Assembly (NCBI GenBank): GCA_018434685.1
Contig: JAHDOV010000027.1
Location: 1-64,000 of the forward strand
Origin: Deltaproteobacteria bacterium
GTDB lineage: Bacteria > Desulfobacterota > Desulfomonilia > UBA1062
DNA: 64,000 nucleotides
Direction of reading: 5' to 3'
Position numbers and translations under genes: made by a program. Position 1 is the stretch's first letter. Every line of letters begins with the position of its first letter. The notes below the pieces were generated by a model. The model was not told where the DNA came from. It saw only the letters and a program-made list of their open reading frames with translations, and did no database searches. Positions 8,858 through 28,911 of this stretch are shown here, one piece after another.

Positions 8858-9790
8858 TTAGAAGGTTTCGAAGAATACAAGATCCTCCTCGGTACGATAG
8901 CGGGTTTTGAACAGGTCAAGTTCCCCGGGAGTGAACTCGCGGTACCTCGTATAGGGATTCGCCAGTCCCAGCCGTTCATACTTGTGTTCGCCCCACCGGT
9001 GAAACGGGAGGAAACAGCATCGCCTGGCTCCTATGCTGTGTGCAAGCTCCACTGTGGCATCGGTGAAGCCGACATCATCGTTGAATCCCGGGATGAGCGG
9101 TATCCTCAACCAGATCTCACACAGGCCGGAGCAGCGCTTCAGGTTGTCCAGGATCAGGGTGTTGTCCACTCCGATGATCTTCCGGTGTTTCTCTGCATCG
9201 AGGTGTTTCACATCGAAGAGCACAAGGTCGACGCAGGACAGGACTTCTTCAAAGACCTGCCATGGGGCGTAGCCTGTGGTGTCCAGCGCTATGTGGATCC
9301 CTTTTTCATGGAGGCCCCGGACAAGGAGGTTCAGGAATTCATGTTGGAGCAGGGGTTCCCCGCCTGAGATGGTCACCCCGCCTCCGGTATGGTCATAAAA
9401 GGCCCTGTCTTTCAGTAACAGTGCCGTTGTTTCGTCAGGAGAAAGGGTCGTCCCGATACTGGTGATGCCGCCGTTTTCACACACGGCAGCGCATGCCATG
9501 CACCGGCTGCACTTCGAATAATCAAGGGCGATCCTGTCAGAAACCAGATTCAGTGCCCCCTGCTCACACACCTCCAGGCATCTCGAGCAGGCCCGGCATC
9601 TCTCCGGGACAATCCTGATCTGGGATGAAGCACACAGCGACTCGGGATTGGAGCACCAGGGACAGTGGAGGGGACAGCCCTTGAGGAACAGGGTGGTCCG
9701 GATGCCCGGACCGTCATGGATACTGAAGTACTGGATGTTGAAGATTGTTCCGGGTTTCTCTGCATGTAATGATTCCTGTAACAACTGCAT
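8858..9790 (-). CDS. glycyl radical enzyme activase (radical SAM)
   Basis: A 310-residue radical SAM activase that would install the glycyl radical on the enzyme encoded just upstream. The SAM-cleaving cluster motif is CPLHCPWC (CxxxCxxC, near residue 37). Two ferredoxin-type [4Fe-4S] motifs follow (CRACSRCLEVC; CSRCMACAAVC), as in activases of non-PFL glycyl radical enzymes. GGGVTISGGEPLLQ is the SAM-binding GGE region. The ATG at 9790 was chosen for GGAG six bases upstream; the longer frame to 9868 adds an unrelated extension. It is second in an operon driven by the sigma-54 promoter at 12467-12452. Confidence 0.92.
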   Translation of the reverse strand: MQLLQESLHAEKPGTIFNIQYFSIHDGPGIRTTLFLKGCPLHCPWCSNPESLCASSQIRIVPERCRACSRCLEVCEQGALNLVSDRIALDYSKCSRCMACAAVCENGGITSIGTTLSPDETTALLLKDRAFYDHTGGGVTISGGEPLLQHEFLNLLVRGLHEKGIHIALDTTGYAPWQVFEEVLSCVDLVLFDVKHLDAEKHRKIIGVDNTLILDNLKRCSGLCEIWLRIPLIPGFNDDVGFTDATVELAHSIGARRCCFLPFHRWGEHKYERLGLANPYTRYREFTPGELDLFKTRYRTEEDLVFFETF

Positions 9791-9860
9791 ATGCGCTCCT
9801 GTCTCGTTACCTGTTTTCATTGCCGTTGCCGGCATGAGGACACGGGGAGGGAGCCCCATG

Positions 9861-9889
9861 GAGGGCACCTCACGACGTGGGATGCCCTC
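9861..9889 (-). promoter_or_regulatory. intercistronic hairpin after the glycyl radical gene
   Basis: GAGGGCA (9861-9867) pairs with TGCCCTC (9883-9889), with inner pairing of CCTCAC and GTGGG. It lies between the enzyme stop (9934) and the activase start (9790). There is no strong T tract, so attenuation or mRNA stabilisation is more likely than full termination. Confidence 0.5.
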
Positions 9890-9933: not shown

Positions 9934-12348
9934 TCAGAAGGTTTGCTCGGTCCGCTTGACAATCTCATCCTGCATACGGTTGTCCAGATCCACGAAGTAT
10001 GCCGAATATCCGGCCACCCGAACGATGAGGTTCTGGTAGTTCTGGGGATTCTGTTGGGCCCGGACAAGGGTGTCGCGATCCACGCAGTTGAACTGGACAT
10101 GGTGGATCTTCATGTCCCGCAGGGTCTTCACATACCCTTCCATGATGTCGTAGTTGGGCGGATCGAAGAACACTGGCATGAATTTCTGATTCAACAGGAG
10201 ATTCCCGGTTTTCAGCGGATCGATCTTGGACACCGAACGGACCGTTGATGTGGGACCTGCTGTGTCTTTGCCCTGAACCGGGGAGATGCTGCCGTCATGG
10301 AAGGGCTCACCAGCCTTGCGTGCATCGCAGGAGGCTGGCAGCAGCATGCCGGCACCGATAGGCGCCGAGGCCGTGGTGCCGTCGAGAACAAAGGGATTGC
10401 CGTAGATATCGGTCCAGTTGTTGCACTCCTGCCTCACCTTTTCCATGATGTCTCTGCTGATGGAATCCACATAGTCGTTGTCATTGCCGAACCTGGGGAC
10501 TTCTTTCTCGATCAGTGCATGGATGCGTTCGTAACCGTTTTCATAATTGTTTTCCAGGGCCTTGACGAAATCTTCCAGGGAGAGTTTATTCTCTTCAAAG
10601 ACCAGTTTCCTGATGGCGGCAAGGCCGTCAGCAGCATTGTTGCATCCGAATACCAGATGGTGTCTCAGGCCGAGGTATTCCCAGTCACGCATGTCGCAGG
10701 CTTTCTCGATGTTTCCGTCCAGGATGGCGGAAAGGAACGGCCGCGGGACATATTCCTTCATGAGCACATCTGCGATGTTCGCGATCATGCCGATTGTCTC
10801 GGCAGCGAACTCCACCTGTCTGCAGAAGGCATTCCAGACATCATCAAAGGTCTTGAAGGTGGAGATGGGCTTCGTGGGGAAGCCAACCTGTTTGCCATCG
10901 AGCTTTCCGCTGGCCATATCCAGCTTTCCCTCGGACAGGGCGAGCGTAAGGCACATGGGAAGGACCAGGCCGCCGCTGTGGCCTGCCCGGTAGTGGACGT
11001 TCCTGCCGGGGATCACGGGCTGCATGCAGTTGTTGATGGAATAGAGCCGGGCTTCCTGCTCAAGACACCCGATCTCGACAAGACGGGGGATGTTGACCTT
11101 GTCATTGAACAGGGCCGGCTGGGAGCAGCCTGAACGGACACACTTGAAGATCCCGTGGTAGAGCTTTTTGGGCGTGCCGTCGTGGATGCGGACCGCGATC
11201 TGCGGGGCAATGGTCTGGAGCTCCCCGGTCACCTCCAGCGCCATGAGGGTCATATCACTCGTGATGTCCTGCCCGTTCTCATCCGTCCCCCCTAAGGTGA
11301 TGGTCTGGAACCCGAGGCCGCCTCCGCCGTTATTCACCCACTGCGGCGGCTGTACATACCCTCCTTCCTGCATCTTGACCCATACCGCCTCCACGAGTTC
11401 CTTCGCCTGCTTGCGGGAGAGTCTCCTCTCTTTAAGGTCTGCTTCCAGGAACGGGGCAAATATCTTGTCAAAGCGGACACCGTTGCCCACCTGGGGCTGG
11501 TCGATGTAGTTGATGATAAAGGTGATGAAGATAAAGCATTGCAGTGCCTCATGCAGGGTTCTGGCAGGGTTCGCCGGGACCTGCCGGCACACCTCGATCA
11601 TCTTTTCAAGCTCCTCGCGCCTCGCCGGATCATCCACGCTCTGCTTGTGCTCTTCGAGCATGCGGGCATAGCGAAGGCCCCAGCGGGCTGTTGCCTCGGT
11701 CGAGAGCTTCATGGCTCTGAGCTCGTCGATCATCTTCATGCGCTGCTCGGTGGGCAGTGAAATATCGGCGAGTACCTCTTTGAGCCTGGCATCGATCTCC
11801 TGGGCGATGCCGTTCAATCCTTTCGAGAAGATCTTCTCGTAGTTGGGGGTGGAAATCTCCCACTGCCACATCCATCCCCCGCTGACAAAATCACCGATCC
11901 TCCAGGATCTCCCTTCCGGGATATAGTCCCGCTCCCTGCCGTGTATGCTCAACGGTTTCCAATATGCATGGATCTCCTGCAGTTCCTGCTTCTCTTCGTC
12001 CGTGAGCATGGCCGAATAGTCCGGCAGATTTTTAACGGCCTTCTCGATCCATCGCCAGTAGAGCTCCGGGTAGGTGGGCAGGCTTTTGTCCGAGCTTGCG
12101 TAGCACCCCACAATGAGCTCGCCTTCCCGGGTGAACAGGGTCATCTTGTCCAGCACCGCAGCCAGGCCCTTTGCCCGCCGGATACACATGGGTTCACCTT
12201 CGGTCTTCTTGAATATGTCAGTCATGATCCGGGCACGCTCCAGGCAGATCCTCAATCCTTCGCGCACAGTGCGTTTGTCAGCTATTCTCCCCAGAGACTT
12301 GATGCAGGTTTCATCCCGCAGGACCTTGTTCCTCAGTGCATATCCCAT
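9934..12348 (-). CDS. glycyl radical enzyme of unassigned subfamily (NNCMQP active site)
   Basis: An 804-residue glycyl radical enzyme. The radical loop is RVAGYSAYFVDL, with Gly780, 25 residues from the C-terminus. The thiyl-radical Cys is probably Cys441 in SINNCMQPVIPG. Eliminases and decarboxylases of the family (diol and glycerol dehydratase, choline lyase, hydroxyphenylacetate decarboxylase) have GCVE at this site, with an essential Glu two residues after Cys. Here that residue is Gln, and neither PFL-type CC nor X-succinate-synthase CMSP is present. I cannot assign a reaction. No small Fe-S subunits accompany it. It shares its activator-binding motif and sigma-54 promoter type with the fumarate-addition operons, so it should act in the same metabolism. 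Start: AAGGAGG upstream of ATG 12348. Confidence 0.9.
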   Translation of the reverse strand: MGYALRNKVLRDETCIKSLGRIADKRTVREGLRICLERARIMTDIFKKTEGEPMCIRRAKGLAAVLDKMTLFTREGELIVGCYASSDKSLPTYPELYWRWIEKAVKNLPDYSAMLTDEEKQELQEIHAYWKPLSIHGRERDYIPEGRSWRIGDFVSGGWMWQWEISTPNYEKIFSKGLNGIAQEIDARLKEVLADISLPTEQRMKMIDELRAMKLSTEATARWGLRYARMLEEHKQSVDDPARREELEKMIEVCRQVPANPARTLHEALQCFIFITFIINYIDQPQVGNGVRFDKIFAPFLEADLKERRLSRKQAKELVEAVWVKMQEGGYVQPPQWVNNGGGGLGFQTITLGGTDENGQDITSDMTLMALEVTGELQTIAPQIAVRIHDGTPKKLYHGIFKCVRSGCSQPALFNDKVNIPRLVEIGCLEQEARLYSINNCMQPVIPGRNVHYRAGHSGGLVLPMCLTLALSEGKLDMASGKLDGKQVGFPTKPISTFKTFDDVWNAFCRQVEFAAETIGMIANIADVLMKEYVPRPFLSAILDGNIEKACDMRDWEYLGLRHHLVFGCNNAADGLAAIRKLVFEENKLSLEDFVKALENNYENGYERIHALIEKEVPRFGNDNDYVDSISRDIMEKVRQECNNWTDIYGNPFVLDGTTASAPIGAGMLLPASCDARKAGEPFHDGSISPVQGKDTAGPTSTVRSVSKIDPLKTGNLLLNQKFMPVFFDPPNYDIMEGYVKTLRDMKIHHVQFNCVDRDTLVRAQQNPQNYQNLIVRVAGYSAYFVDLDNRMQDEIVKRTEQTF

Positions 12349-12451: not shown

Positions 12452-12467
12452 AGCAAAGAGGATGCCA
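12452..12467 (-). promoter_or_regulatory. sigma-54 (-24/-12) promoter for the glycyl radical enzyme operon
   Basis: On the minus strand the sequence reads TGGCATCCTCTTTGCT. The -24 GG (12466-12465) and -12 GC (12454-12453) have exact sigma-54 spacing. Transcription would start near 12440, about 90 bp before the ATG at 12348. Confidence 0.85.
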
Positions 12468-12504
12468 GGATTGTATAAATACATAACTTATTGAAAAAAC
12501 GATT

Positions 12505-12517
12505 TAAATCATTGATC
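12505..12517. promoter_or_regulatory. possible IHF site
   Basis: TAAATCATTGATC matches the reverse of the IHF consensus WATCARNNNNTTR at all but the last position. It lies between the activator site (12647) and the minus-strand sigma-54 promoter, where DNA bending is usually needed. Confidence 0.35.
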
Positions 12518-12543
12518 AGGCACTATGGCCAAAACAGCAAACC

Positions 12544-12555
12544 GGGACAGATGTG
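12544..12555 (+). promoter_or_regulatory. repeated motif GGGACAGATGTG, copy 1
   Basis: The 12-bp motif is repeated exactly at 12863-12874. Here it is part of an inverted repeat (GACAGA...TCTGTC, 12546-12566). It lies about 80 bp upstream of the minus-strand sigma-54 promoter. The factor that binds it is unknown. Confidence 0.4.
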
Positions 12556-12646
12556 CACAGTCTGTCGCAGAAACAGTTTGCATAATCATCAGGAAATACT
12601 GAAGATAGTATTCTTTACGAGAAAAAAGGGCCTGTTGTGTCAACCG

Positions 12647-12662
12647 TGCCCAGAGTGGGTCA
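12647..12662 (-). promoter_or_regulatory. upstream activator site for the sigma-54 regulator
   Basis: On the minus strand it reads TGACCCACTCTGGGCA, matching TGACCCANNNTGGGCA, also found at 12782 and 19459. It lies about 180 bp upstream of the minus-strand sigma-54 promoter. Confidence 0.7.
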
Positions 12663-12772
12663 GAAGATTGCCCTGGGACGAGGCAGTCACGTTCCTGACC
12701 CGGGCTCCTCTCCCGGAAGCTGAGATCACCGGAGAGCGGAGCGGAACTCCCCGAGCACTCCTGTCTGGAAAC

Positions 12773-12797
12773 GGGTCATGATGACCCAAAATGGGCT
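12773..12797 (+). promoter_or_regulatory. upstream activator site array for the transcarboxylase operon
   Basis: TGACCCAAAATGGGCT (12782-12797) matches the shared motif with one change. An extra inverted half-site GGGTCA lies at 12773-12778. The array is about 170-190 bp upstream of the plus-strand promoter at 12966. Confidence 0.7.
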
Positions 12798-12862: not shown

Positions 12863-12874
12863 GGGACAGATGTG
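12863..12874 (+). promoter_or_regulatory. repeated motif GGGACAGATGTG, copy 2
   Basis: An exact second copy of the motif at 12544, about 100 bp upstream of the plus-strand sigma-54 promoter, followed by TCTCC so that GGGACA and TGTCTCC form a short dyad. Confidence 0.4.
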
Positions 12875-12965
12875 TCTCCTGGGCGATTGCACCGGTATGG
12901 ATATTCACTGCACCCTCATGCAGCAACACTGTAACTCATTAATATAACGAATAGATATAGTCATA

Positions 12966-12981
12966 TGGCATTATAATTGCT
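12966..12981 (+). promoter_or_regulatory. sigma-54 (-24/-12) promoter for the transcarboxylase operon
   Basis: TGGCATTATAATTGCT has GG at 12967-12968 and GC at 12979-12980 with exact spacing. The predicted start is near 12992, giving an untranslated leader of about 200 bases before the ATG at 13190. Confidence 0.85.
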
Positions 12982-13189
12982 TGAGTCTGGATGGGCCGGC
13001 AGCTCGTTTGCCCGTCACCTCTGCAATGTCACCGTGCGATGATGTCGGATGGAGAGGGTAGGCATGCAGTGCCTCTGCTGAGAAGAGCGAGGCAGGTCGC
13101 AGCTTCAGTGCTGAACGGTGCGCTTACTCTGAGGCCGTCGCAGGACATCGGTTTTCATGGATCTTTTTGAACACAGGGAGGGAACCGAA

Positions 13190-15175
13190 ATGAAAAAGAC
13201 TCGACACGGCACACTCCATGCCGGAATAATGGACCATCCGCCGAAAGACATAACGAATCCGGTCAAGATTCAGGACCTGACCTTGCGGGACGGACATCAG
13301 TCAATCTTTGCCACCCGGGCGAGAACAGAGGATTTCATCCCCATCGCCCAGGAAATGGACAGGGTGGGGTTTTATTCCATGGAGGTCTGGGGCGGTGCCA
13401 CCTTCGACACCATGCACCGCTTTCTTGCGGAAGACCCGTGGGAACGCATCAGGACCCTGAAGAAGTATATAACGAAGACGCCGTTTTCCATGCTGCTTCG
13501 GGGCCAGAATCTGGTAGGATATCGGAACTATCCCGACGATCTTGCCGAGATGTTCGTGGAACGTGCCTGTGAAAACGGCATGGATATCTTTCGGGTCTTT
13601 GATGCACTCAACGATTTTCGAAACTTCGAGACCGTGGTCAGGGTGATCAAAAAGCACGGCAGGCACTTCCAGGGATCGATCTGCTATTCCCTCACGCGGG
13701 AACGGATGGGGGGCGAGGTGTACAGTCTCGAGTATTATGTGGAAAAGGCAAGGCAGCTTGAAGACATGGGTGCCGACACCATCTGCATCAAGGACATGGC
13801 CGGGCTCATCGCCCCCTACGATGCCTATGCCCTCATCAGGGCGCTCAAGGAGACAGTCTCTGTTCCGGTCCACCTCCACAGTCATTTCACCTCGGGCATG
13901 GCGGACATGTCTCTGCTCAAGGCTGTCGAGGCCGGGGTGGATATCGTCGATACCTGTCTGTCTCCGTGGGCCTACAGGACTTCTCACCCGGCAGTGGAAC
14001 CTCTGGTGGCAACGCTCAAGTACACCGACCGGGACACCTGCCTCGACCTGAAGCAGCTTGCGAAGTGTGCCGAGTATTTCGAGAAGATATCGCCGAATTA
14101 TCGGCACCTCCTCGATGACAGGACCTCCATTATCGATATCAACGTGCTGCTGCACCAGACGCCGGGAGGGATGCTGTCAAACCTCATCAATCAGCTCAGG
14201 GAGATGGATGCCCTGGACAGGCTCGACGAGGTCTTCTCTGAGCTTCCTGTCGTGCGGAAAGAGCTGGGAGAGGTGCCGCTGGTAACCCCTACGAGCCAGA
14301 TCGTGGGCATCCAGACCGTGAACAATGTACTCTTCGATACGAAGCAGGAGCGCTACAAGATGATAACCGCCCAGGTGAAAGATCTCTGCTACGGGCTCTA
14401 CGGCCAGACCCCGGTGCCCATTGATCCCGTGGTGCAGAAAAAGGCCCTCACCGATTATCCCCGGGGACAGACCCCGATAACCGTTCGCCCGGCGGACGTG
14501 CTGGAGCCGGAGCTCGAGAAAGCCCGGGTAGAGACTGCCGAGCTGGCCAAAGATATCGATGATGTCCTTACCTATGCCCTCTACCCTTTGACCGGCATGC
14601 GGTTTTTGAAATGGAAGTACGGCCTGGAAGAGGTCCCTCTGGGCCTCGTGCCGAAAAAGCAGAAAGACGGGGATGAAGCAAACGCCGGAAAGGAAGAGGC
14701 CAAAGCCGGGAAGGGCAATGAAGAACAAGACAGTCCGGTACTTTCGCAGGAAAGAGGCATTCAGAGCTTCAATGTGTCCATAAACGGCACCTGCTACAAG
14801 ATCGATATCGAGCAGACCTCCGGGGTGGGGCTCTTCCTTCAGGGGCTCTGCTCGCAGGAGGCCGCAGCGTCTCCTCCACCTTTCCCGGTCAATCTGCAGC
14901 ACGCCGTCCAGCCGCTACAGAATCCTCCACTGCAGCGGCATGCCACCAAAGAAAAGAACCATGGCACCCCCATAACAGCCCCAATGCCCGGTATGATCAT
15001 CCGCTACGAGGTGGAAAAAGGAGCTGCAATCGATGAAGGTGATGTGGTGCTGATCTTGGAGGCCATGAAAATGGAAAACTACATCGTGAGTCCCACCAAG
15101 GGTGTGCTGCAGGATGTCTTTTTCAAAATGGGCGAGAGTGTGAAGAAGAATGACGTCCTGGCTGTCGTTGTTTGA
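13190..15175 (+). CDS. biotin-dependent carboxyltransferase, 5S-like domain fused to biotin carrier
   Basis: A 661-residue protein of the oxaloacetate decarboxylase alpha / transcarboxylase 5S / pyruvate carboxylase B family. The TIM-barrel starts with LTLRDGHQS (near residue 30), has the metal site HLHSHFTSG (near 225), and a candidate carboxylated Lys in CIKDMAG. A charged linker (near 495-520, rich in K/E/G) leads to a C-terminal biotinyl domain with EAMKMEN; biotin Lys is residue 627. It would move CO2 between biotin and pyruvate/oxaloacetate. With the next gene it forms a complete transcarboxylase. No biotin carboxylase or membrane decarboxylase subunit is adjacent, which favours CO2 transfer over ATP-driven carboxylation. 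Start 13190 has AGGGAGGG upstream. Confidence 0.9.
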   Translation: MKKTRHGTLHAGIMDHPPKDITNPVKIQDLTLRDGHQSIFATRARTEDFIPIAQEMDRVGFYSMEVWGGATFDTMHRFLAEDPWERIRTLKKYITKTPFSMLLRGQNLVGYRNYPDDLAEMFVERACENGMDIFRVFDALNDFRNFETVVRVIKKHGRHFQGSICYSLTRERMGGEVYSLEYYVEKARQLEDMGADTICIKDMAGLIAPYDAYALIRALKETVSVPVHLHSHFTSGMADMSLLKAVEAGVDIVDTCLSPWAYRTSHPAVEPLVATLKYTDRDTCLDLKQLAKCAEYFEKISPNYRHLLDDRTSIIDINVLLHQTPGGMLSNLINQLREMDALDRLDEVFSELPVVRKELGEVPLVTPTSQIVGIQTVNNVLFDTKQERYKMITAQVKDLCYGLYGQTPVPIDPVVQKKALTDYPRGQTPITVRPADVLEPELEKARVETAELAKDIDDVLTYALYPLTGMRFLKWKYGLEEVPLGLVPKKQKDGDEANAGKEEAKAGKGNEEQDSPVLSQERGIQSFNVSINGTCYKIDIEQTSGVGLFLQGLCSQEAAASPPPFPVNLQHAVQPLQNPPLQRHATKEKNHGTPITAPMPGMIIRYEVEKGAAIDEGDVVLILEAMKMENYIVSPTKGVLQDVFFKMGESVKKNDVLAVVV

Positions 15176-15240
15176 AACAGGAGGTGGTTCGTCTGTTGAG
15201 GTCCTGCCTTTTGGCGGACCAGACAGGAAGGGGGCATGGA

Positions 15241-16869
15241 ATGAGTGTTGCCGGTAAACCCAAGGGAAAGATCAGTGATGGAAACAAGCCCGGTGAGGGA
15301 GAAACGGACAGGAAATATACCGGACGTATCGATCAGTTGCGCCAGATCAGGTCTGCAGCGTATCAATGCGGGGGAAAGGACAAGATAGACCGCCTCCACA
15401 GCAGAGGGAAATTGACTGCACGGGAACGGATAAACGTTCTCCTGGACGAGGGGAGTTTCGTGGAGACCAACCTGATTATCGGGCACCTGGAGGGCATTCC
15501 CGCAGACGGTCTTGTTGCAGGCTACGGAAAGATACACGGCAGAACTGTCTGTGTATATGCCCAGGATGCCACGGTCAAGGGTGGATCCGTCGGGCCGGTC
15601 CACGGGTTCAAGATGTACCGCACCGTGGAGATGGCCCTTGACATGGGTGTGCCGTTCATCGGGCTCCATGATTCCCCGGGCGCACGCATCCCGGACATGA
15701 ATTCAAAGAGCGTGTTCGGCGAGGCCATGGAGAAGCACGGCGGGTCGCTGTTCTATCCGAACACGCAGGCCTCAGGCCTTATCCCCCAGATATCGGCCAT
15801 CATGGGGAGCTGTGCCGGGATCTCGGTCTATTCCCCCGCACTGACCGACTTCATCTTCATGGTGGACGGGCAGAGCCACATGTTCATTACCGGCCCCGGC
15901 ACCGTGGAGGTGGTCATGGGGGAGCGCCTGAGCAAGGATGAACTCGGCGGAGCCGAGGTCCACTGCAAGATTTCGGGAGTGGCGGACCGGAGATACAAGA
16001 GCGAACAGGAACTGCTGAACGCCATTCGGGAGCTGCTTTGTTACCTGCCGGACAATGCCGATAGTGTCCCACCCTGTGACAACCTGGGAGACGATCCGGG
16101 TCGCATGACCGACGAACTCACCGCGATCGTCCCCTCTGATGCTACGAAGGCGTACGATGTCCGCAAGGCCATTGCCGTCATCGTGGATGCGGGGAGATTC
16201 TTTGAGATCAAGCCGGAGTTCGCCCCGGAGATCGTGGTGGGCTTTGCACGCCTCGGTGGCCGGGTGGTGGGGATTGTGGCCAACCAGCCGTGTTTTCTTG
16301 CCGGCAGCCTCACCGTAGACAGTTCGGACAAGCAGACCAGGTTCATGCGTTTCTGCGACTGCTTCAACATCCCCATTGTCCTGCTGGTTGATACCTCTGC
16401 CTATCTGCCGGGGCGAGACCAGGAGCACAGCGGCATCATCCGTCACGGGGCCAAGGTCCTCTATGCCCTGTGCGAGTCCACCGTGGCCCGGATCGGCCTG
16501 GTGATGCGCAAGGCCTATGGCGGCGGGAACCTGGGCATGGGGGTGATCCCCGCCCAGGTGGGCACGGATTTCCTGTTCTACTGGCCCATAACAGAGCTTG
16601 GCGTCATGGGGGCAAAGGCCGCCGTGGAGCTGTTCTTCGGGGAGACCATCCGGACGTCGCCCGAACCGGACAAGATGCGCGCTCAGCTGCTGGCAGAGTA
16701 TGAACAGCGGTATGCCAATCCCATGCGGGAGGCTGCCTACAATCCCTTTATTACCGATGTAATCGAACCGAGGGAAACTCGCAGGACCCTGATCAGTGCC
16801 CTGGAATTCCTGTCAACAAAGAAAAGGCCCCCGAGATACCCCAAGCGGCACGGAAACATTCCCATGTAA
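15241..16869 (+). CDS. acyl-CoA carboxyltransferase (12S / PccB-like)
   Basis: A 542-residue carboxyltransferase acting on (substituted) malonyl-CoA. Both crotonase-fold halves are present: HDSPGARIPDM (near residue 145) and VDTSAYLPGRDQEHSGIIRHG (near 380-400). In propionyl-CoA carboxylases and Propionibacterium 12S the second site is usually VDVPGFLPG; here it is DTSAY, near the oxyanion and acyl pocket, so the acyl specificity may be unusual. It is paired with the 5S-1.3S fusion 65 bp upstream. The likely role is removing CO2 from the malonyl-CoA made by the mutase of the neighbouring operon. ATG 15241 has AGGAAGGGGG upstream; a TTG at 15172 is less likely. Confidence 0.9.
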   Translation: MSVAGKPKGKISDGNKPGEGETDRKYTGRIDQLRQIRSAAYQCGGKDKIDRLHSRGKLTARERINVLLDEGSFVETNLIIGHLEGIPADGLVAGYGKIHGRTVCVYAQDATVKGGSVGPVHGFKMYRTVEMALDMGVPFIGLHDSPGARIPDMNSKSVFGEAMEKHGGSLFYPNTQASGLIPQISAIMGSCAGISVYSPALTDFIFMVDGQSHMFITGPGTVEVVMGERLSKDELGGAEVHCKISGVADRRYKSEQELLNAIRELLCYLPDNADSVPPCDNLGDDPGRMTDELTAIVPSDATKAYDVRKAIAVIVDAGRFFEIKPEFAPEIVVGFARLGGRVVGIVANQPCFLAGSLTVDSSDKQTRFMRFCDCFNIPIVLLVDTSAYLPGRDQEHSGIIRHGAKVLYALCESTVARIGLVMRKAYGGGNLGMGVIPAQVGTDFLFYWPITELGVMGAKAAVELFFGETIRTSPEPDKMRAQLLAEYEQRYANPMREAAYNPFITDVIEPRETRRTLISALEFLSTKKRPPRYPKRHGNIPM

Positions 16870-17619: not shown

Positions 17620-19461
17620 GTGACTTCCTCCTTCATGAAGCATGTTATGGAAGATGAAATCCAGAGTGTAGATAAACTCCAGAATTTCTCTGAAAAGCAG
17701 ATCGATTTTCAGCAGAGGAACACCTTTTTCGAGATGCTCATTAAGAGTCTGCCAGGCATCTTTTACGTAATCGATGACCATCTGAACCTCTATATGTGGA
17801 ACAAGAATGCAGAAAGCGTCACCGGGTATACGTATGATGATATCAGCAAGACGGGCATCTATGAGATCTTTGAACCCGAGTATCTGCAGCTCGTGAAAGA
17901 GGCCATTGAAAAGGCATTCAGCCATGGGGAGGGATCCGTTGAAGCGGTGATCCGTACCAAGGAGGGCTGTCTGATCCCCTACCTGTTCACCGGGGTAAGT
18001 GCCGGGATTGAAAATGTTCCGTATCTTCTGGGAATCGGCATAGACATCAGCAAGCGCAAACAGGCGGAAGACGGCCTGCGGGAGAGCGAGACACTGTACC
18101 GCATCTTTGCCCAGTGGATGACAGAGGGCGTTGCCCTCCTGTTCTCTTCACAGATACTCTTCACAAACAAGGCCTTTTCCCTCATCTTAGGTTGCGAAGA
18201 ACCGAACCAGCTCCTGGGCGAAGATATCATGAGCTATATTCACAAAGATTTCGAGATTTACTTCAAGGAGCTTATCTCTTCGGTAGAGGAAGGCCAGTCC
18301 AGGGAGCGCTATTTTCAGGCACGCTGGCTGAAAGGGCTCAAGGAGGAAATCTGGGTCGAGGGTCGGGGAGTGTTCATCCGCTGGAAGGGTAAACCCGCCG
18401 TTCTCATGACCTCGCGGGACATTACCGAGGCGAAGCTCAAAGAGATTTCCATGCAGGAAGAAGCTGCCCACCTCAGGAGAGAGAATATTACGCTGCGCAG
18501 TTCCATCATCAAGGACCGCTATCGCCTGGGCAATATCATAGGCAAGAGCCACTCCATGCAGGAGGTTTATGAGCTGATTCTCAATTCGTCGGCTACCAAT
18601 GCCAATGTGATCATCTATGGCGAGTCGGGTACCGGCAAGGAACTGGTGGCCCAGGCCATTCATGAGATGAGCAGCAGATCGTCGAAACCCTTTGTTGCGG
18701 TGAACTGCGCGGCCATCCCGGAGAATCTCATCGAGAGCGAATTCTTCGGGTACAAGAAGGGTGCCTTCACCGGTGCTGTAAATGACAAGCCCGGGTACCT
18801 GGACATGGCAGACGGCGGAACCCTCTTCCTCGATGAGGTGGGAGAGGTTGGGATGAACATCCAGGCCAAGCTGCTGCGTGCCATCGAGGGGGGCGGGTAT
18901 TCACCGGTGGGCGCCAACTGCGCCAAATTCTCTGATTTCAGGATCATTGCTGCCACCAACAAGAATCTCTTAGACCGGTCGAAACGAGGGCTGTTCCGGG
19001 AGGATTTCTTCTACCGCATCCATATCATCCCCATCACCCTGCCGCCGCTTCGGAACCGCAAGGAAGATATCCCGCTGCTGTTGGAGAGGTTTCTCCGCAT
19101 GTATTCATCAGGCAAGATGATACCGTCGCTGCCAGGCCACATGATAGATGCCTTCATCAACTATGACTGGCCGGGCAATGTCCGTGAACTGCAGAATGTC
19201 GTCCAGCGGTATCTCTCCGTCGGTACCATCGATTTTTTCACCCCGACAGACACAAAGCAGGCTGGTCCGCACACCCTCATCCCGGCACAGGTCGACCAAT
19301 CGAGTACCTTCGATCTCCAGGAGCATACCGGTAATCTGGAGAAGACCATCATCATGGAGGTCTTGAAAAAACATCACTGGAACAAGAGCAAGTCTGCACA
19401 GGCGCTCAATATCTCACGCAAGACCCTTTCCAGAAAGATAAAACGTCTCGGTTTATTGTGA
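17620..19461 (+). CDS. sigma-54 transcriptional activator with two PAS domains
   Basis: A 613-residue enhancer-binding protein. Two PAS domains (about residues 35-150 and 155-280, the first ending in the PAC-like [14 protein letters not shown]) precede a short coiled coil (about 270-300) and the AAA+ domain. It has Walker A GESGTGKE (near 332), the sigma-54 contact loop GAFTGA (near 385), Walker [12 protein letters not shown] (near 402) and a C-terminal Fis-type helix-turn-helix ([22 protein letters not shown]). There is no response-regulator receiver domain, so it should sense a ligand or redox signal through PAS. It lies between the two plus-strand operons whose sigma-54 promoters share its putative binding motif. 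The GTG start is tentative; ATG 17635 is possible. Confidence 0.93.
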
Positions 19462-19494
19462 CCCAAAGTGGGCAGGTTGTGCCCACTTTGGTCA
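19459..19494. promoter_or_regulatory. paired upstream activator sites (large inverted repeat)
   Basis: TGACCCAAAGTGGGCA (19459-19474) and, inverted, TGACCAAAGTGGGCA (19494-19480) form two sites with centres about 21 bp apart, i.e. two helical turns. They lie 160-195 bp upstream of the sigma-54 promoter at 19653. The first three bases are the stop codon of the activator gene. As RNA, the repeat would also form a 14-15-bp hairpin, so it may stop or stabilise the regulator mRNA as well. Confidence 0.75.
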
Positions 19495-19560: not shown

Positions 19561-19580
19561 CTTGGGCACATGTGTCCAAG
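19561..19580. promoter_or_regulatory. 20-bp palindrome upstream of the main promoter
   Basis: CTTGGGCACATGTGTCCAAG is a palindrome with one mismatched pair. It lies about 75 bp upstream of the -24 element and resembles the GGGACAGATGTGTC motif found before the other two promoters. The binding factor is unknown. Confidence 0.45.
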
Positions 19581-19652: not shown

Positions 19653-19668
19653 TGGCACCAACCTTGCT
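19653..19668 (+). promoter_or_regulatory. sigma-54 (-24/-12) promoter for the mutase/X-succinate synthase operon
   Basis: TGGCACCAACCTTGCT has GG at 19654-19655 and GC at 19666-19667, an essentially consensus sigma-54 promoter. The start would be near 19679. All genes to 35633 are on this strand with short gaps, so it could drive the whole operon. Confidence 0.9.
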
Positions 19669-19861
19669 TTATACCTGATGGTTTCTGATGAAGATGTAAT
19701 GAAGTTCATTCACTAACAAGTACACACAGTTTTTCATCCGGTTTTGCATCTGTCTCGAGCGTCGGCCTGAGGCCTGTCCCGGGCTGTATGCGAGTGATGA
19801 ATCAGCTGATTATATTGGTGTTGTTACTATTTAGTCTGGCGTGTTGGGGGGGTGGAAACCT

Positions 19862-20296
19862 ATGAATGAGAACAGGAAGATCAGGGTGCTCATATCAAAG
19901 CCCGGCCTCGACGGACACGAACGCGGTGCCATGGTTGTGGCCTACGGACTGCGGGATGAAGGCTTCGAGGTCATCTATACCGGTCTGCGGCAGACGCCTG
20001 AGCAGATTGTCAATGCCGCCATCCAGGAGGACGTGGATGTACTCGGGCTCTCGATCCTGTCCGGGGCACATCTGGGACTTACCCGGAAGGTGATCGATGG
20101 TCTGGGCGCCCAGCAGGCGGATGACATCCTCGTTCTCCTGGGCGGTATCATCCCGGAAGAAGATATCCCGGCCCTGAAAGAGATGGGGGTTGACGAGATC
20201 TTCACTGCCGGGACTCCCATCAAGGATATCAGCGATTTCATCCGGTCTCACCTTCCGCGTTCGCCGGAACAGGAGCCGGTTATCGAAAAGCCGTAG
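19862..20296 (+). CDS. acyl-CoA mutase, cobalamin-binding subunit
   Basis: A 144-residue B12-binding domain protein. The base-off/His-on motif is DGHERG (Asp17, His19, Gly22), followed by LSILSGAH and LLGGIIP, the remaining cobalamin-binding signatures. It is the separate small subunit of a split mutase, as in isobutyryl-CoA, hydroxyisobutyryl-CoA and archaeal methylmalonyl-CoA mutases. The large subunit starts 10 bp downstream. The ATG at 19862 has GGGGGGTGG upstream. It is the first gene of the sigma-54 operon. Confidence 0.93.
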   Translation: MNENRKIRVLISKPGLDGHERGAMVVAYGLRDEGFEVIYTGLRQTPEQIVNAAIQEDVDVLGLSILSGAHLGLTRKVIDGLGAQQADDILVLLGGIIPEEDIPALKEMGVDEIFTAGTPIKDISDFIRSHLPRSPEQEPVIEKP

Positions 20297-20305
20297 GGAC
20301 AGGGT

Positions 20306-22060
20306 ATGGGCAGAGACGGGTATATAAAGAAGATAGAGACGGCTGCCAGGCAGTGGGAAGAACAGGTGCTCGGTCCCCGCATAAAGAGGTTCAACCTCGC
20401 CGAGAGTCCCACCAGGTTCTATTCACCCCTGAACGTCAGGAATTCAGACTTCCTCGAAAAGGTGGGTTTTCCGGGTGAGTACCCGTACACTGCAGGAAAC
20501 TCCCCTTTTGATTTCTGGAAGGCATTTGCAGCAGACGCTGCAAAGACCGGATACCGCCCTGATTGGGGCGGGGCCGGCAAGGTGGGGAAATATGGAGGAT
20601 TCGGAACGGCCTCCGACTACCGCGATTATCTGCTGCGCATGCAGTCCATGGGGAGAAAGGGCGGGCCCAATATTGCCTTCGATCTGGCGACCCAGTGCGG
20701 CTACGATTCCGACAGTCCCTATGCAGAAGGAGAGGTTGGGCGGGTCGGTGTCGCCATAGATTCGTTCCGGGACTTCCAGGTGATCTACGAGGCATACACC
20801 GGAGATCTCGACATCGACAAGGTGCCTTCCAATTACACCATCAATGCGCCTGCAGCGGTAATCATCGCAATGTATGCCACACTGGCAAAGAAACGCGGGA
20901 TAGCGATCGACAGATTGCAGGGCACCCCGCAGAATGATATCCTCAAGGAATTTATCGCACGGGGCACGTATATCTATCCACCCCGGCCTTCCATTCGCCT
21001 GTTCAGGGACATCTGCGTATTCTGCACGCACTATCTGCCGCGCCTGAACATCAACAGTATCGGGGGCTACCACATCAGGGAGGCCGGGGCCACCCATATA
21101 CAGGACCTGGCATTCTCCTTTGCAAACGGCATTGCCTATATTGAGGCCGGTCTGGCTGGCGGGCTCGATATCGATGCCTTTGCCCCGAGGATCACGTTCA
21201 ACGCCTTTGGCGGCAGCATGGAGATGTACAAGGAGATCGCCCTGCAGCGTGCAGCCAGAAGGATCTGGGCGAGAATACTCAAGGAACGTTTCGGGGCGAG
21301 AGATCCCCGCAGCATGATGATCCGTCAGCCTATCACGGCGCATATCGGGTGTTCGAGCACGACCCTGCAGCGGCCGTTGAACAATCTTGCACGGGCGGTG
21401 ATCGGGGGGATTGCCGCAGGGATGTCCGGCGGTATCCCCGGAGCCTTTCCCCCCTTTGATGAACCGTTGGGACTGGGTCATTCCCAGGAGGCAACCCAGC
21501 TGCAGATCGATGCTACCCGCATCATGATCTATGAGGCAAAGGTCGCTGATGTGAATGATCCGTGGGCAGGGTCGTATTTCATGGAGTCGCTCACCGATGA
21601 GACCGAAGAAGCGGCGCTCGCGGAGATGGAAAAGATCGAGAACATGGGCGGCGCTGTTGCAGCTATCGAGAACGGCTACATGCCGCGCTGTGTTGCCAAG
21701 AGTGCCTATGAGAAGCAGAAACTTGTCGAACAGCTCAAGGAATTCATAGTCGGGGTCAACTGCTTTACCTCGGACAATGAGATCGAGGTATCGGTGAACC
21801 GCATCGTCGAAGCAACCTATGACCCCGAACGCATGAAAACCGCTGAAGACCGGCAGAAGAAGAGCCTTGCCCGACTCAAGCGTGAACGGAACGGCACTGC
21901 GGTTTCCACAGCGTTGAAGACGCTGTGTGTGCACGCACGGGACGATTCGTACAACCTCATGCCCGACATCATTGAATGCGTTGAAAACGAAGCCACCCTC
22001 CAGGAGATCTCTGACGTGTTGCGCCAGGTCTTCGGGGAGGCGCAGCCAATAAAACTCTAG
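20306..22060 (+). CDS. acyl-CoA mutase large subunit, divergent methylmalonyl-CoA mutase type
   Basis: A 584-residue TIM-barrel subunit of a B12-dependent carbon-skeleton mutase. Tyr96 (KYGGF), Arg231 (PRPSIRLF) and His256 (GGYHIREAGAT) align with Tyr89, Arg207 and His244 of Propionibacterium methylmalonyl-CoA mutase. Tyr and Arg bind the free carboxylate, so a (substituted) succinyl-CoA/malonyl-CoA pair is the likely substrate rather than isobutyryl-CoA. Other usually invariant parts differ: the PWTIRQ segment is GAGKVG, and the QSLHTNSFDEALALP region is replaced by a PGAFPPFDEPLGLG-type segment. That suggests a different acyl chain. In an alkane-type pathway it would convert (1-methylalkyl)succinyl-CoA into (2-methylalkyl)malonyl-CoA. 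Confidence 0.9.
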   Translation: MGRDGYIKKIETAARQWEEQVLGPRIKRFNLAESPTRFYSPLNVRNSDFLEKVGFPGEYPYTAGNSPFDFWKAFAADAAKTGYRPDWGGAGKVGKYGGFGTASDYRDYLLRMQSMGRKGGPNIAFDLATQCGYDSDSPYAEGEVGRVGVAIDSFRDFQVIYEAYTGDLDIDKVPSNYTINAPAAVIIAMYATLAKKRGIAIDRLQGTPQNDILKEFIARGTYIYPPRPSIRLFRDICVFCTHYLPRLNINSIGGYHIREAGATHIQDLAFSFANGIAYIEAGLAGGLDIDAFAPRITFNAFGGSMEMYKEIALQRAARRIWARILKERFGARDPRSMMIRQPITAHIGCSSTTLQRPLNNLARAVIGGIAAGMSGGIPGAFPPFDEPLGLGHSQEATQLQIDATRIMIYEAKVADVNDPWAGSYFMESLTDETEEAALAEMEKIENMGGAVAAIENGYMPRCVAKSAYEKQKLVEQLKEFIVGVNCFTSDNEIEVSVNRIVEATYDPERMKTAEDRQKKSLARLKRERNGTAVSTALKTLCVHARDDSYNLMPDIIECVENEATLQEISDVLRQVFGEAQPIKL

Positions 22061-22076
22061 GAGATGAGTACAGCTC

Positions 22077-23048
22077 ATGCAGCGGGAAGTATCAGAGATG
22101 ATCGATGCTATGAAAAGGGGTGATACCCGGGCGCTCGCCCGCACGATCACCCTGGTGGAAAACAGGAGTCCCGGCTGGAAAGAGGCCATGCAGGCCATCT
22201 ATGGGGATACCGGATCTGCCTGTGTGTTCGGGATCACGGGGTCGCCCGGTGCCGGCAAGAGCACCCTCACCAACGAGATCGCACTGAGGTTGCACGATCA
22301 GGGGTATTCCCTCGGCATCATAGCAGTCGATCCGTCAAGCCCGTTTTCCGGCGGGGCACTGCTGGGAGATCGTTTGCGGATGCGCAATATCTGTATGAAA
22401 ACGGATATCTTTATCCGGTCCATGGCAACCAGGGGGGTCCTGGGAGGACTCTGCCAGGCAGCCAGGGACGTGGTCCGCATTCTCGATGCCGCGGGAAAGG
22501 ATATCATCCTTATCGAAACCGTGGGTGCCGGGCAGGACGAGATCGATGTGGTCAGGGTCTCAAACTTTGTCATGGTGGTGTGCATCCCCGGGCAGGGAGA
22601 CGGGATTCAGGCAATCAAGGCAGGGATCATGGAGATAGCGGACCTGTTTATCGTAAACAAGGCAGACCTCGGAGGTGCAGATGAGATCGTCGCCGATATC
22701 AACGGCATGCTCGATCTGTGCACCCATAATGGAATACCGCGCCCGCCCATCATGAAGACCTCTACTGAAACCAAAGAAGGCCTCGATGCTCTCGTGGAGA
22801 ACCTCATCGCGTATGCCCGAGAGAGGAAGGCTGCCACTGAGGTAAACAGGAATCACGTAAAGGAAGAGATCCTGAGCCTCTTGGAGAGAGAGGTCTTTCA
22901 TTTCGTTCGTGAGGAGCTCAGCGGGAACGGACGGTTCGAAGAGGCTGTCGAACAGGTGCTGAGCCACAGGGCGGATCCGTACTCCACGGTGGAGGAACTG
23001 CTCGGGTCGTTTCCCCTGTACCGGGGGATGAAAACCAGGGAGAAATGA
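22077..23048 (+). CDS. meaB: MeaB/ArgK-type GTPase, mutase chaperone
   Basis: A 323-residue G3E-family GTPase that protects and reloads B12-dependent acyl-CoA mutases. Walker A is GSPGAGKST (near residue 58), VDPSSPFSGGALLGDR (near 82) is the family switch region, ETVGAGQ near 145 and NKAD near 195 are the remaining GTPase motifs. A C-terminal helical dimerisation segment follows. It lies 16 bp after the mutase large subunit, as is usual for mutase operons, supporting a working mutase. Confidence 0.93.
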   Translation: MQREVSEMIDAMKRGDTRALARTITLVENRSPGWKEAMQAIYGDTGSACVFGITGSPGAGKSTLTNEIALRLHDQGYSLGIIAVDPSSPFSGGALLGDRLRMRNICMKTDIFIRSMATRGVLGGLCQAARDVVRILDAAGKDIILIETVGAGQDEIDVVRVSNFVMVVCIPGQGDGIQAIKAGIMEIADLFIVNKADLGGADEIVADINGMLDLCTHNGIPRPPIMKTSTETKEGLDALVENLIAYARERKAATEVNRNHVKEEILSLLEREVFHFVREELSGNGRFEEAVEQVLSHRADPYSTVEELLGSFPLYRGMKTREK

Positions 23049-23049: not shown

Positions 23050-24435
23050 ATGGCCGAATCCACAGACCAGGTTACCCGGAAGCTCGGGCAGTTCATAGCC
23101 GGAACCAAGACATCGGATATACCCGAATGGGCCTTTGAACATGCTCGCGTTGCCTTTATGGACTGGATCGCGGTGACCATGGCAGGGAAGGATGATCCGC
23201 TTGTTGGAAAGCTGATCCAATACGCACGCATGATGGGCGGCCAGGAGCAGGCGACCATTATCGGGCATGGGATGAAAAATAATGTAAGTCATGCCGCACT
23301 CATCAACGGGGCGGCCTCCCATGCCCTTGATTACGACGACACCCTCGTGTCCTTCCTCGGACATCCTTCAGTCACCCTCTTTCCTGCACTCCTTGCTCTC
23401 TCCGAGTGGCGATCAGAGACGGGGCGGGATTTTCTCGCCGCCTACCTCATCGGTCTCCAGGTGGGAGGTGCCGTCGGTGCGTGTGCAAGCCTGGATCATT
23501 ACATGGCCGGATGGCACGCCACCTCTACGCTCGGTCATCTTGCCTCTGCAGCAGGGTGTGCCCGTCTTCTCGGGCTCGATGAAGACAGCTGTGTCCATGC
23601 ACTCGGCATCGGGGCAACCCAGTCTTCAGGCCTCAAGAGGGTATTCGGGAGCATGTGCAAACCCTTCCATGCGGGGAGGTCTTCCCAGTCAGGGCTCATG
23701 GCTGCTCTGCTCGCCCGGGATGGTTTCACCTCTGCTGAGGACATTCTCGAGGGTCCCCAGGGGTTTTTCCAGGTGCTCAAGGGGAGCGTGAACGAGGATG
23801 CACTATCCCTGCTCGGCATGGGCTGGGATGTGCAGAATCTCACCCAGAAATATCATGCATCGTGCCATGCCACCCACTCACCGCTCGAGGCGGCACTGGC
23901 GGTTGTGAACGAGCAGGGGATCGCTGTGGAAACCATACAGGCCATCTACGTCCATTCATCACAGCTGGCACTCGATGCTGCCGGGAAAATTCACCCGTCA
24001 ACAGGCACCGAGGGAAAATTCAGCATACCCTACTGCGTGGCAAACGCGCTTTTAAGGAAAGAAACCGGCACCCAGGCGTTTACCGACGAGAAGGTGAACG
24101 ATCCCCAGGTACGAGAATTCATGAAAAGAATCGTGGTTGAACTGGATGAGGAGATGAAGGCCCTCGAATCACGGGTGGATATCGAAACATCTGACGGGAA
24201 CATGTATTCAGGATTTTCGGATATTCTCCAGGAGATCCCCCCTCTTGAAATCAAGAAGCAGCGGGTTCGAAGCAAGTTCATGGATCTGTGCGATCCTGTT
24301 GCCGGCCCCGAGAAAACCCTGAGACTCGCGGAGGCGATTGAGCATCTCGAGGAGCTTCAGGACATGAACGAGATCACTCAGGATCTGTATCTGGATACTG
24401 GTGAGACAGGCACAAAGAAGTATTTGAGGAGATGA
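23050..24435 (+). CDS. MmgE/PrpD family protein
   Basis: A 461-residue protein of the MmgE/PrpD family, which includes 2-methylcitrate dehydratase, cis-aconitate decarboxylase and some isomerising hydro-lyases. Family features are the N-terminal PEWAFEHARVAFMDWIAVTMAG, INGAASHALDYDD (near 80-92), GWHATSTLGHLASAA (near 155) and KRVFGSMCKPFHAGR (near 195-209). It begins 2 bp after the MeaB gene, so it belongs to the operon. Its substrate here is unclear: nothing else suggests a methylcitrate cycle. Acting on a di- or tricarboxylic acid formed in the pathway is plausible. Confidence 0.88.
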   Translation: MAESTDQVTRKLGQFIAGTKTSDIPEWAFEHARVAFMDWIAVTMAGKDDPLVGKLIQYARMMGGQEQATIIGHGMKNNVSHAALINGAASHALDYDDTLVSFLGHPSVTLFPALLALSEWRSETGRDFLAAYLIGLQVGGAVGACASLDHYMAGWHATSTLGHLASAAGCARLLGLDEDSCVHALGIGATQSSGLKRVFGSMCKPFHAGRSSQSGLMAALLARDGFTSAEDILEGPQGFFQVLKGSVNEDALSLLGMGWDVQNLTQKYHASCHATHSPLEAALAVVNEQGIAVETIQAIYVHSSQLALDAAGKIHPSTGTEGKFSIPYCVANALLRKETGTQAFTDEKVNDPQVREFMKRIVVELDEEMKALESRVDIETSDGNMYSGFSDILQEIPPLEIKKQRVRSKFMDLCDPVAGPEKTLRLAEAIEHLEELQDMNEITQDLYLDTGETGTKKYLRR

Positions 24436-24439: not shown

Positions 24440-25417
24440 GTGGAGCGGAAGGTCCTGGTTACAGACATTGCCCGCTTTTGTGTAAATGACGGGCCGGGAT
24501 TCAGGACAAACGTCTACCTCAAGGGGTGTCCGCTACACTGCAGCTGGTGCCATAATCCGGAGACCATCGATCCCGAACCCGAGATCTACTGGAAAAGGCG
24601 TTTGTGCACTCAGTGCGGGAAATGCCTCGATGCGTGTCCGAAAGACGCCATCAACCCTCCGGTGGACCCTTCCCTGACGCGGTCAGAGAAGTATGCCTGC
24701 CACAAGATTATTCGCAGCAGGTGCGAGAGCTGCATGAAGTGCGTTGAGGTATGCCCGTCCGGTGCCCTGCAGATTGTCGGGCAGCCTATGGGTATCACTG
24801 AGATCCTCGACGAGGTGGAACGGGACCGGTTGTTCTATGACAACTCCGGTGGGGGCATGACCCTGAGCGGAGGGGAGCCCACCCTCCACGTTCGTTTTGC
24901 TGAGGACCTGCTCGGCCAGGCCAGGTCGCGATCCATCCATACCTGTCTCGATACGAACGGCCACTGTGTGTGGGAGGATCTTGAACGTATCGCCCGGGAA
25001 GCGGACATCATCCTGTTTGACCTGAAGCACCTCGATACCCGAAAACACCGGGAACAAACCGGCGTGAACAACGAAATTATCCTTGAAAATCTTGGAAAGC
25101 TCAGCTCGATGTCCGTGGAAATCTGGGTGCGCATTCCGGTGATCCCGGGGTTCAATGATGCACTCGACTATCACCGGCACGTAGCAGACTATCTTGCCGG
25201 CCTCCCGGGCTCCATCGACCGGATCGATCTGCTGGCCTACCATAACTGGTGCCAGGACAAGTACGGCTGGCTCGGGAGAGACTGGATTTACCGTGACGTG
25301 GAGGCACTGGATCCGAACCTGTTGGAGGTTCACGTGCGGATCTACCGCAAACATGGGTTCAGAGCCACGATAGGAGGTTCAGGGTTTGAGGAAATGGAAA
25401 GTAGGAGAAGTCTCTAG
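24440..25417 (+). CDS. X-succinate synthase activase (radical SAM)
   Basis: A 325-residue activase for the glycyl radical enzyme encoded downstream (AssD/BssD-like). The radical SAM motif is CPLHCSWC (near residue 30). Two ferredoxin-like clusters follow (CTQCGKCLDAC; CESCMKCVEVC), separated by an insertion of about 30 residues (PVDPSLTRSEKYACHK...). GGGMTLSGGEPTLH is the SAM-binding region. The GTG start at 24440 has AGGAG eight bases upstream. It is clearly distinct from the activase at 8858-9790, so each radical enzyme seems to have its own partner. Confidence 0.93.
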   Translation: MERKVLVTDIARFCVNDGPGFRTNVYLKGCPLHCSWCHNPETIDPEPEIYWKRRLCTQCGKCLDACPKDAINPPVDPSLTRSEKYACHKIIRSRCESCMKCVEVCPSGALQIVGQPMGITEILDEVERDRLFYDNSGGGMTLSGGEPTLHVRFAEDLLGQARSRSIHTCLDTNGHCVWEDLERIAREADIILFDLKHLDTRKHREQTGVNNEIILENLGKLSSMSVEIWVRIPVIPGFNDALDYHRHVADYLAGLPGSIDRIDLLAYHNWCQDKYGWLGRDWIYRDVEALDPNLLEVHVRIYRKHGFRATIGGSGFEEMESRRSL

Positions 25418-25449
25418 GAACAATTCTTTAGACAAAGGAGGTGATGAGG

Positions 25450-25614
25450 ATGCCTACATGCAAGCAGTGCAAGAAGTTCTTTCCCCTGGAAGACAACCCC
25501 AACAAGGGTGATTGTGTCCAGAGAGTGATAGACCCTCGGCAGACATACTACAAGGCAAAATCCGTAGATGCTGAGAGTGATGCAGCCAAGTGCTCTGAGT
25601 TTGAAAAGAAATGA
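25450..25614 (+). CDS. X-succinate synthase gamma-like subunit (small Fe-S protein)
   Basis: A 54-residue Cys-rich protein with Cys4, Cys7, Cys22 and Cys48 (CKQC...GDC...KCSEF), the layout of BssC/AssC-type small subunits, which bind a [4Fe-4S] cluster and attach to the large subunit. It sits directly between the activase and the catalytic subunit, as in bss and ass operons (DCAB order). AAAGGAGGTG eight bases upstream of ATG 25450 is one of the strongest ribosome sites in the window, implying high expression. Confidence 0.85.
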   Translation: MPTCKQCKKFFPLEDNPNKGDCVQRVIDPRQTYYKAKSVDAESDAAKCSEFEKK

Positions 25615-25689
25615 CAGAAAAATATCCCGGTCATTTTAGCCACAGCGCATGTGAGGCCGGTGGCCGGGAAGGAGAAAAAGGGGAACGTT

Positions 25690-28680: not shown

Positions 28681-28911
28681 ATGAATTGTCCTGAATGTGG
28701 ATACGAGGCCCCTGTGGCGAATTTCCGGTATCTCTACAATGCGCGGATCGATGCTTCCGTAAGTATCAGGCAATGCACCCAATGTGAGGCCTGGCTTGCG
28801 GTTGACGAACTGCAGGGCACGGCGAGCAAGAAGATCGGTCCGGGAGAGGCGCCGTGGGGAAAGTCGGCAGGGATAGAAGATCTCGCAACAGATATTCGTC
28901 CCGGCAAATAG
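28681..28911 (+). CDS. small zinc-ribbon protein of unknown function
   Basis: A 76-residue protein with two CxxC pairs, CPEC (residues 3-6) and CTQC (near 34-37), expected to bind zinc or iron. I do not recognise a named family. It starts 36 bp after the beta-like subunit, with AAAGGAGG upstream, so it is translated well and in the same operon. Small accessory ORFs also occur in bss/ass operons (for example bssF), which is a possible but unproven relation. Confidence 0.75.
   Translation: MNCPECGYEAPVANFRYLYNARIDASVSIRQCTQCEAWLAVDELQGTASKKIGPGEAPWGKSAGIEDLATDIRPGK

Follow-up and report, generated by a model that had tools for sequence, protein, structure and literature searches.

A predicted glycyl radical enzyme of an uncharacterised subfamily, encoded alongside the alkylsuccinate pathway of a deltaproteobacterium

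Anaerobic alkane degradation, in oil reservoirs as in syntrophic cultures, is taught as a single radical step, the addition of fumarate, followed by CoA chemistry. The DNA analysed here (the window, a stretch of 64,000 nucleotides) contains a largely complete alkylsuccinate pathway: the synthase with gamma, beta and delta subunits, an activase, a MoxR/VWA-like pair and a CoA ligase, together with a mutase, MeaB, carboxyltransferases and a malate dehydrogenase. It also contains the gene of a second glycyl radical enzyme (GRE), with the unusual catalytic loop NNCMQP. To which subfamily does this enzyme belong, is it part of the alkane pathway, and what reaction might it catalyse? The subfamily that it represents is called family 1 below.

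9934 to 12348, minus strand: family-1 GRE gene, 804 aa, an intact ORF (12348 to 9934) with an ATG start
11028 to 11026, minus strand: codon of Cys441
11022 to 11020, minus strand: codon of Gln443
10989 to 10987, minus strand: codon of Arg454
10011 to 10009, minus strand: codon of Gly780
8858 to 9868, minus strand: radical SAM activase of the GRE, next gene downstream (TIGR02494, 312 bits against a cut-off of 174)

A previous sequence-only reading had the coordinates of the gene right by the ORF and omitted its strand, which is minus. It had placed Cys441 and Gly780 in the two GRE loops, and translation and alignment bear this out. The active-site loop is SINNCMQPVIPG; Cys441 lies within YSINNCMQPVIPGRNVHYRAGH and aligns with the catalytic Cys of all GREs compared. 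Gly780 lies within IVRVAGYSAYF, a C-terminal radical loop of the RVxGY type (IVRVAGY), and is invariant across the family-1 homologues. Residues N439, N440, C441, M442, Q443, P444, I446, P447 and G448, and likewise N450, H452, Y453, R454, A455, G456 and H457, are identical in 14 of 14 aligned homologues (63-86% identity); the NNCMQP motif is therefore no sequencing accident. His563 and His564 are equally unvarying in these 14 proteins. The activase that the same reading had assigned to the enzyme is the TIGR02494 match in the list; its true start is likely nearer 9790 (ATG), and it is the conserved next gene in most homologous family-1 loci. In a six-peptide scan of 85,000 species genomes, all the close relatives of the enzyme came from Smithella, Syntrophaceae and Desulfobacterales-type genomes; one further match has 33% identity and a GCLEP loop.

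From its sequence, the gene is predicted to encode a single-subunit GRE of an uncharacterised subfamily, in agreement with the earlier view that no subfamily could be assigned. Twelve NCBIfam GRE models match the protein and none reaches its cut-off, the best scoring 477.8 against 678.2. The family profile, scored against solved structures, gives 488.8 bits for glycerol dehydratase, 449 for propanediol dehydratase, 443 for HypD, 442.5 for BSS and 391 for MasD, values that are not decisive alone. The aryl acetate decarboxylases were considered and rejected: HPAD and indoleacetate decarboxylase score 201.5 and 308.2 bits against NCBIfam equivalog cut-offs of 1150 and 1100. No description of the subfamily was found in the open-access papers searched, whose coverage of Smithella work is incomplete.

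A family-profile search of 395 genomes of the phylum found two sister groups. Group 2 scores about 850-890 bits and its loop is mostly NNCM(Y/F/L/V)PxIPGKN, while group 3 scores about 600-720 bits with a loop that is mostly GCVY(L/M)(E/D)xPGKNxxRR. These groups (for example L041 and L062; L033 and L047), themselves uncharacterised, share with family 1 the clade, the IPGKN loop and usually an Arg at Cys+13. They differ in having Tyr, Phe, Leu, Val or Arg rather than Gln at Cys+2, in their neighbouring genes, and in occurring also in AssA-negative genomes.

A maximum-likelihood tree (LG+C20) was built from 54 proteins. Family 1 and groups 2 and 3 form one clade with support of 99/97, and this clade is sister to the X-succinate synthases (XSS; BSS plus MASS) at 100/99, with the dehydratases, HypD, IslA and PFL2 outside. 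Family 1 does not fall within the BSS plus MASS clade, and the 100/100 support of an XSS clade that excludes it argues against family 1 being nested in XSS. A grouping with glycerol and propanediol dehydratase to the exclusion of XSS was rejected, being 76.6 log units worse when forced (AU p = 1.05e-5). When long branches were removed in a thinned tree, the divergent L056 moved, its place being unsure, and the rest of the clade was kept; resting on outgroups with long branches, the sister relation to XSS calls for caution. The phylogeny that the sequence-only reading had called for thus places the enzyme outside every characterised clade among the 54 proteins.

The pocket was compared by alignment to BSS, MASS and glycerol dehydratase on the catalytic Cys. 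Gln443, at Cys+2, aligns with Glu435 of the eliminases, the Glu of their GCVE motif, as had been claimed when Gln was said to occupy the place of the base. It also aligns with the Ser of the XSS CMSP loop, which reads CMQP in family 1, Met and Pro being kept. His164 of the eliminases falls in a gap, Asp447 is replaced by Ala455 and Tyr640 by Thr658. In XSS, Arg508 (BSS) or Arg492 (MASS), Gln707/Glu690 and Asn615/Thr598 have roles at the fumarate site (PMC12358834). The fumarate Arg aligns with Gly456 in family 1, Gln707/Glu690 with Thr658, Trp613 with His563 and Asn615/Thr598 with Leu565. The conserved Arg454 stands two residues before the aligned fumarate Arg, in a shorter loop, and may or may not take over its place in the pocket. 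As read from the alignment, the predicted pocket matches none of the characterised sets compared. An AlphaFold2 model made from 14 sequences (mean pLDDT 64, active-site loops poor) is too weak to read the pocket, and a fold search with it places eliminases and BSS about level (TM about 0.65-0.69, rmsd about 8-9). Placement within a characterised subfamily with a matching pocket was looked for and was not found.

The comparison with known enzymes can be drawn together as follows. MasD/AssA (PDB 9o8u) and TutD (PDB 4pkc), the nearest characterised clade in the tree, share with family 1 the GRE fold, the Cys-Met-x-Pro loop and the pathway context; family 1 has Gln for Ser at Cys+2, keeps, at the aligned positions, neither the fumarate Arg nor the Gln/Glu, Trp and Asn/Thr, lacks gamma, beta and delta subunits and stands outside the XSS clade. 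Glycerol and 1,2-propanediol dehydratase (PDB 1r8w, 5i2a, 9rco) have a similar overall score, a single subunit and an activase of their own, whereas family 1 has Gln for Glu at Cys+2, lacks the active-site His and Asp and forms a separate clade. The eliminases HypD, IslA, 8id1 (N-methyl-cis-4-hydroxy-L-proline dehydratase) and CutC have the GRE fold and activation in common with family 1 and branch outside the group of XSS and the new clade; unlike family 1, the HypD, IslA and 8id1 representatives all have Glu at Cys+2 in an alignment without CutC.

A connection to the alkane pathway is seen in the promoters. The sigma-54 consensus was fixed beforehand and the 64 kb were scanned with at most one mismatch allowed.

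12452 to 12467, minus strand: sigma-54 (-24/-12) promoter TGGCATCCTCTTTGCT, some 104 bp upstream of the start codon of the GRE gene
12544 to 12558, minus strand: upstream element GTGCACATCTGTCCC, an imperfect inverted repeat, 91 bp upstream of the -24 box of the GRE promoter
12647 to 12662, minus strand: upstream element TGACCCACTCTGGGCA, 195 bp upstream of the same -24 box
12966 to 12981, plus strand: sigma-54 promoter TGGCATTATAATTGCT, serving the divergent carboxyltransferase operon; the two elements lie at 12863-12878 and 12782-12797
19653 to 19668, plus strand: sigma-54 promoter TGGCACCAACCTTGCT of the mutase-alkylsuccinate synthase operon, no mismatch, with elements at 19564-19578 and 19459-19474
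17620 to 19461, plus strand: PAS-containing sigma-54-dependent activator (profile match)

The window holds four sites at this threshold against 2.0 expected, and three of the four precede the GRE gene, the carboxyltransferase operon and the mutase-alkylsuccinate synthase operon, each in the correct orientation. All three promoters carry GGGCACATNTGTCCC-like and TGACCCANNNTGGGCA-like elements, 89-102 and 184-195 bp upstream. The layout of promoter and two elements has no other occurrence in the window, where the presence of the elements is not independent evidence, since they were read from the three promoters themselves. The composite layout recurs, complete or partial, in L011, L012 and L018, where it precedes the GRE and also a second promoter. 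A sigma-54 match (at least 9 of 11) is present in 12 of 18 homologous upstream regions; the other six loci, three pairs of relatives, have no such site, and a homologue of the regulator is also missing in the neighbourhoods examined. The activator in the list is likely the regulator of all three promoters, and in several other genomes its homologues adjoin the GRE gene or lie close to it. By its promoter layout, the GRE gene would belong to the sigma-54 regulon of the alkylsuccinate pathway of Syntrophaceae/Smithella-type alkane degraders, and the common promoter and enhancer layout supports the proposal, made from the sequence alone, of shared control with the fumarate-addition operon. The identity of the enzyme and its membership of the regulon, taken jointly, are held with high confidence.

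The genes under the other two promoters are the following.

13157 to 15175, plus strand: carboxyltransferase/biotin carrier protein, pyruvate carboxylase B/OadA-like (profile match)
15172 to 16869, plus strand: methylmalonyl-CoA decarboxylase alpha-like carboxyltransferase (profile match)
19841 to 20296 and 20306 to 22060, plus strand: small and large subunits of an acyl-CoA mutase (large by profile, small by homology and position)
22077 to 23048, plus strand: MeaB-type GTPase (profile match)
23050 to 24435, in the alkylsuccinate operon: MmgE/PrpD-family protein, far below the PrpD cut-off
24440 to 25417, plus strand: activase of alkylsuccinate synthase (profile match)
25441 to 25614, plus strand: alkylsuccinate synthase gamma-like small subunit
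25651 to 28191, plus strand: alkylsuccinate synthase catalytic subunit AssA/MasD, 1250 bits to the solved MasD 9o8u
28276 to 28644 and 28681 to 28911: alkylsuccinate synthase small subunits beta and delta

A fourth small Cys-rich ORF (28940-29278) follows beta and delta and is kept beside AssA elsewhere (54-77% identity). The MmgE/PrpD gene is kept beside the pathway in L012, L016, L018 and L023, and its product might act in the alkylsuccinate pathway as an epimerase or dehydratase. The two carboxyltransferase genes lie in the same gene region as a malate dehydrogenase (34635-35633); together these enzymes might transfer a carboxyl group to pyruvate and supply fumarate via oxaloacetate and malate, bypassing succinate oxidation. 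For a 96-aa Cys-rich ORF at 12491-12781, no relative was found beyond the same genome. An XSS whose small subunits had been overlooked was considered: the surrounding loci were searched with gamma, beta, delta and the fourth small ORF, and matches were found only beside AssA, never beside family 1, so that the GRE stands without small subunits as originally described.

A context survey, as suggested by the first reading, extends to other genomes. Family 1 lies near mutase, MeaB, MmgE/PrpD, acyl-CoA dehydrogenase, enoyl-CoA hydratase and carboxyltransferase genes; other contexts are a regulator with a biotin operon (Smithella) and an AtuA-type branched acyl-CoA cluster. In L019, L020, L025 and L079, all Smithella, the set of GRE, activase and regulator is followed directly by the biotin operon (bioB-bioF-bioD-bioA-like genes), and in L021 biotin-type genes lie upstream of the GRE. 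The neighbours of groups 2 and 3 are 2-oxoacid:ferredoxin oxidoreductases (adjoining the group-2 GREs of L065, L066 and L068), NMO-type flavoproteins, acyl-CoA genes and once mutase genes, the group-2 GRE of L071 being followed by those of the large and small subunits. In group 3, L075 and L077 have one activase gene between two paralogous GRE genes, an arrangement that suggests heterodimers or two substrates. The same genome as the window encodes another GRE (L001, G000:C57:107258-109207) of 1007 aa, whose N-terminal extension of about 200 residues looks, by eye, like a sterol-carrier (SCP2) domain.

Co-occurrence with the synthase points the same way as the promoters. Family 1 is present in 7 of 395 sampled genomes of the phylum and all seven have AssA, against 19 of 395 overall (Fisher 1.8e-10); the genome samples overlap in part and are phylogenetically non-independent, and p-values are indicative only. 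Within the taxonomic family of the source genome, AssA is found in 5/5 genomes with family 1 against 7/24 overall, and inside genera the two vary together in presence and absence. In nine of 12 further genomes the AssA match is stronger than the cross-match of the GRE itself, and the remaining three are MAGs that may be incomplete. The functional link to fumarate addition that had been read from the window is supported by this co-occurrence. In two close relatives, L085 (G006) and L113 (G014), the AssA gene has one in-frame stop each (TAA and TGA, respectively), which may reflect an assembly error, decay or recoding.

What would the enzyme do? By analogy with the superfamily, the activase would set a radical on Gly780, the radical would move to Cys441, and the thiyl radical would abstract a hydrogen from the substrate. 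With the Glu at Cys+2 replaced and the eliminase His and Asp both missing, the reaction can probably do without a general base in the customary position. A carboxylate substrate may be held by the conserved Arg454, His452 and His457 together with Arg562-His563-His564. The substrate would be some carboxylated compound of the alkane pathway, and the reaction radical C-C chemistry akin to fumarate addition in a different pocket. Its likeliest forms are addition to an unsaturated acid and the rearrangement of an acid of the alkylsuccinate type, either of which would complement the adjoining alkylsuccinate synthase. A role in the alkane pathway is probable, whereas radical C-C chemistry of this kind is put forward tentatively, at somewhat under even chances. 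The explanation as a whole, an uncharacterised GRE of the alkane-pathway regulon performing base-free radical C-C chemistry on a carboxylate, comes near to an even chance without reaching it. Against it count the fumarate contacts that are not conserved in the alignment, the absent small subunits, the 6 of 18 loci without a sigma-54 site, and the group 2 and 3 relatives in genomes without AssA. As its nearest relatives are XSS, some variant form of radical addition is no less likely than a new class of reaction. That family 1 catalyses a radical reaction not described for GREs (one other than fumarate addition, elimination, decarboxylation and pyruvate cleavage) as a regular, co-regulated step of anaerobic alkane degradation is a conjecture with the chances leaning against it.

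Four other explanations were weighed. First, a radical isomerase, epimerase or carbon-skeleton enzyme could act on the synthase product or a later acid and make unusable isomers usable. The nesting of family 1 inside AssA-positive genomes, the promoter architecture common with the pathway and the many conserved carboxylate-type ligands (Arg454, His452, His457, Arg562, His563, His564) would fit; the pathway, however, already has a B12 mutase, an MmgE/PrpD protein and a CoA ligase, the sister groups occur without AssA, and to our knowledge there is no precedent among GREs for an enzyme of this type. This reading is unlikely. Second, the enzyme could be a true hydrocarbon-activating XSS whose pocket has changed, in which Arg454 stands in for Arg508 and which joins hydrocarbons of a second class (branched, cyclic or longer) to fumarate. 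Its clade is sister to XSS, Met and Pro of CMSP are kept, an Arg follows closely after the Cys loop, mutase genes directly follow its group-2 relative in L071 and the promoter layout is that of the alkane pathway. Yet all four aligned residues of the fumarate site differ, though limonenylsuccinate synthase is reported to conserve its fumarate-binding residues (PMC12583861); small subunits are missing; and no reasonably complete genome was found to have family 1 and lack AssA, a surprising pattern for an activating enzyme that works independently. This reading is rather unlikely. Third, the enzyme might eliminate from or decarboxylate some unrelated small molecule by means of an unusual base, its co-regulation being a coincidence. 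The score of glycerol dehydratase is slightly above that of BSS (488.8 against 442.5 bits), and Glu164, His563 or His564 could serve as bases; but the eliminase Glu, His and Asp are all replaced, the AU test rejects the grouping with the dehydratases and no NCBIfam equivalog cut-off is reached. This is quite improbable. Fourth, an ordinary formate C-acetyltransferase, as gene 839_13 is annotated in the Smithella M82 paper (PMC5606693; L019 lies on a scaffold of that number), is contradicted by the sequence, which has Asn-Cys where pyruvate formate-lyase has its Cys-Cys pair and scores 87.3 bits against a cut-off of 994.2, and can be practically dismissed.

The preferred reading remains that of a companion to alkylsuccinate synthase. 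Family 1 has so far been found almost only in alkane degraders; in the window its gene lies beside alkane-activation genes and apparently under the same control system. A second radical enzyme that accompanies the first in Smithella and related bacteria, under the same promoter layout, may point to a missing step or to a wider substrate range. The new clade beside XSS, with named and testable proteins, may show how base-free radical chemistry diversified, and the family-1 gene is a candidate companion marker to assA.
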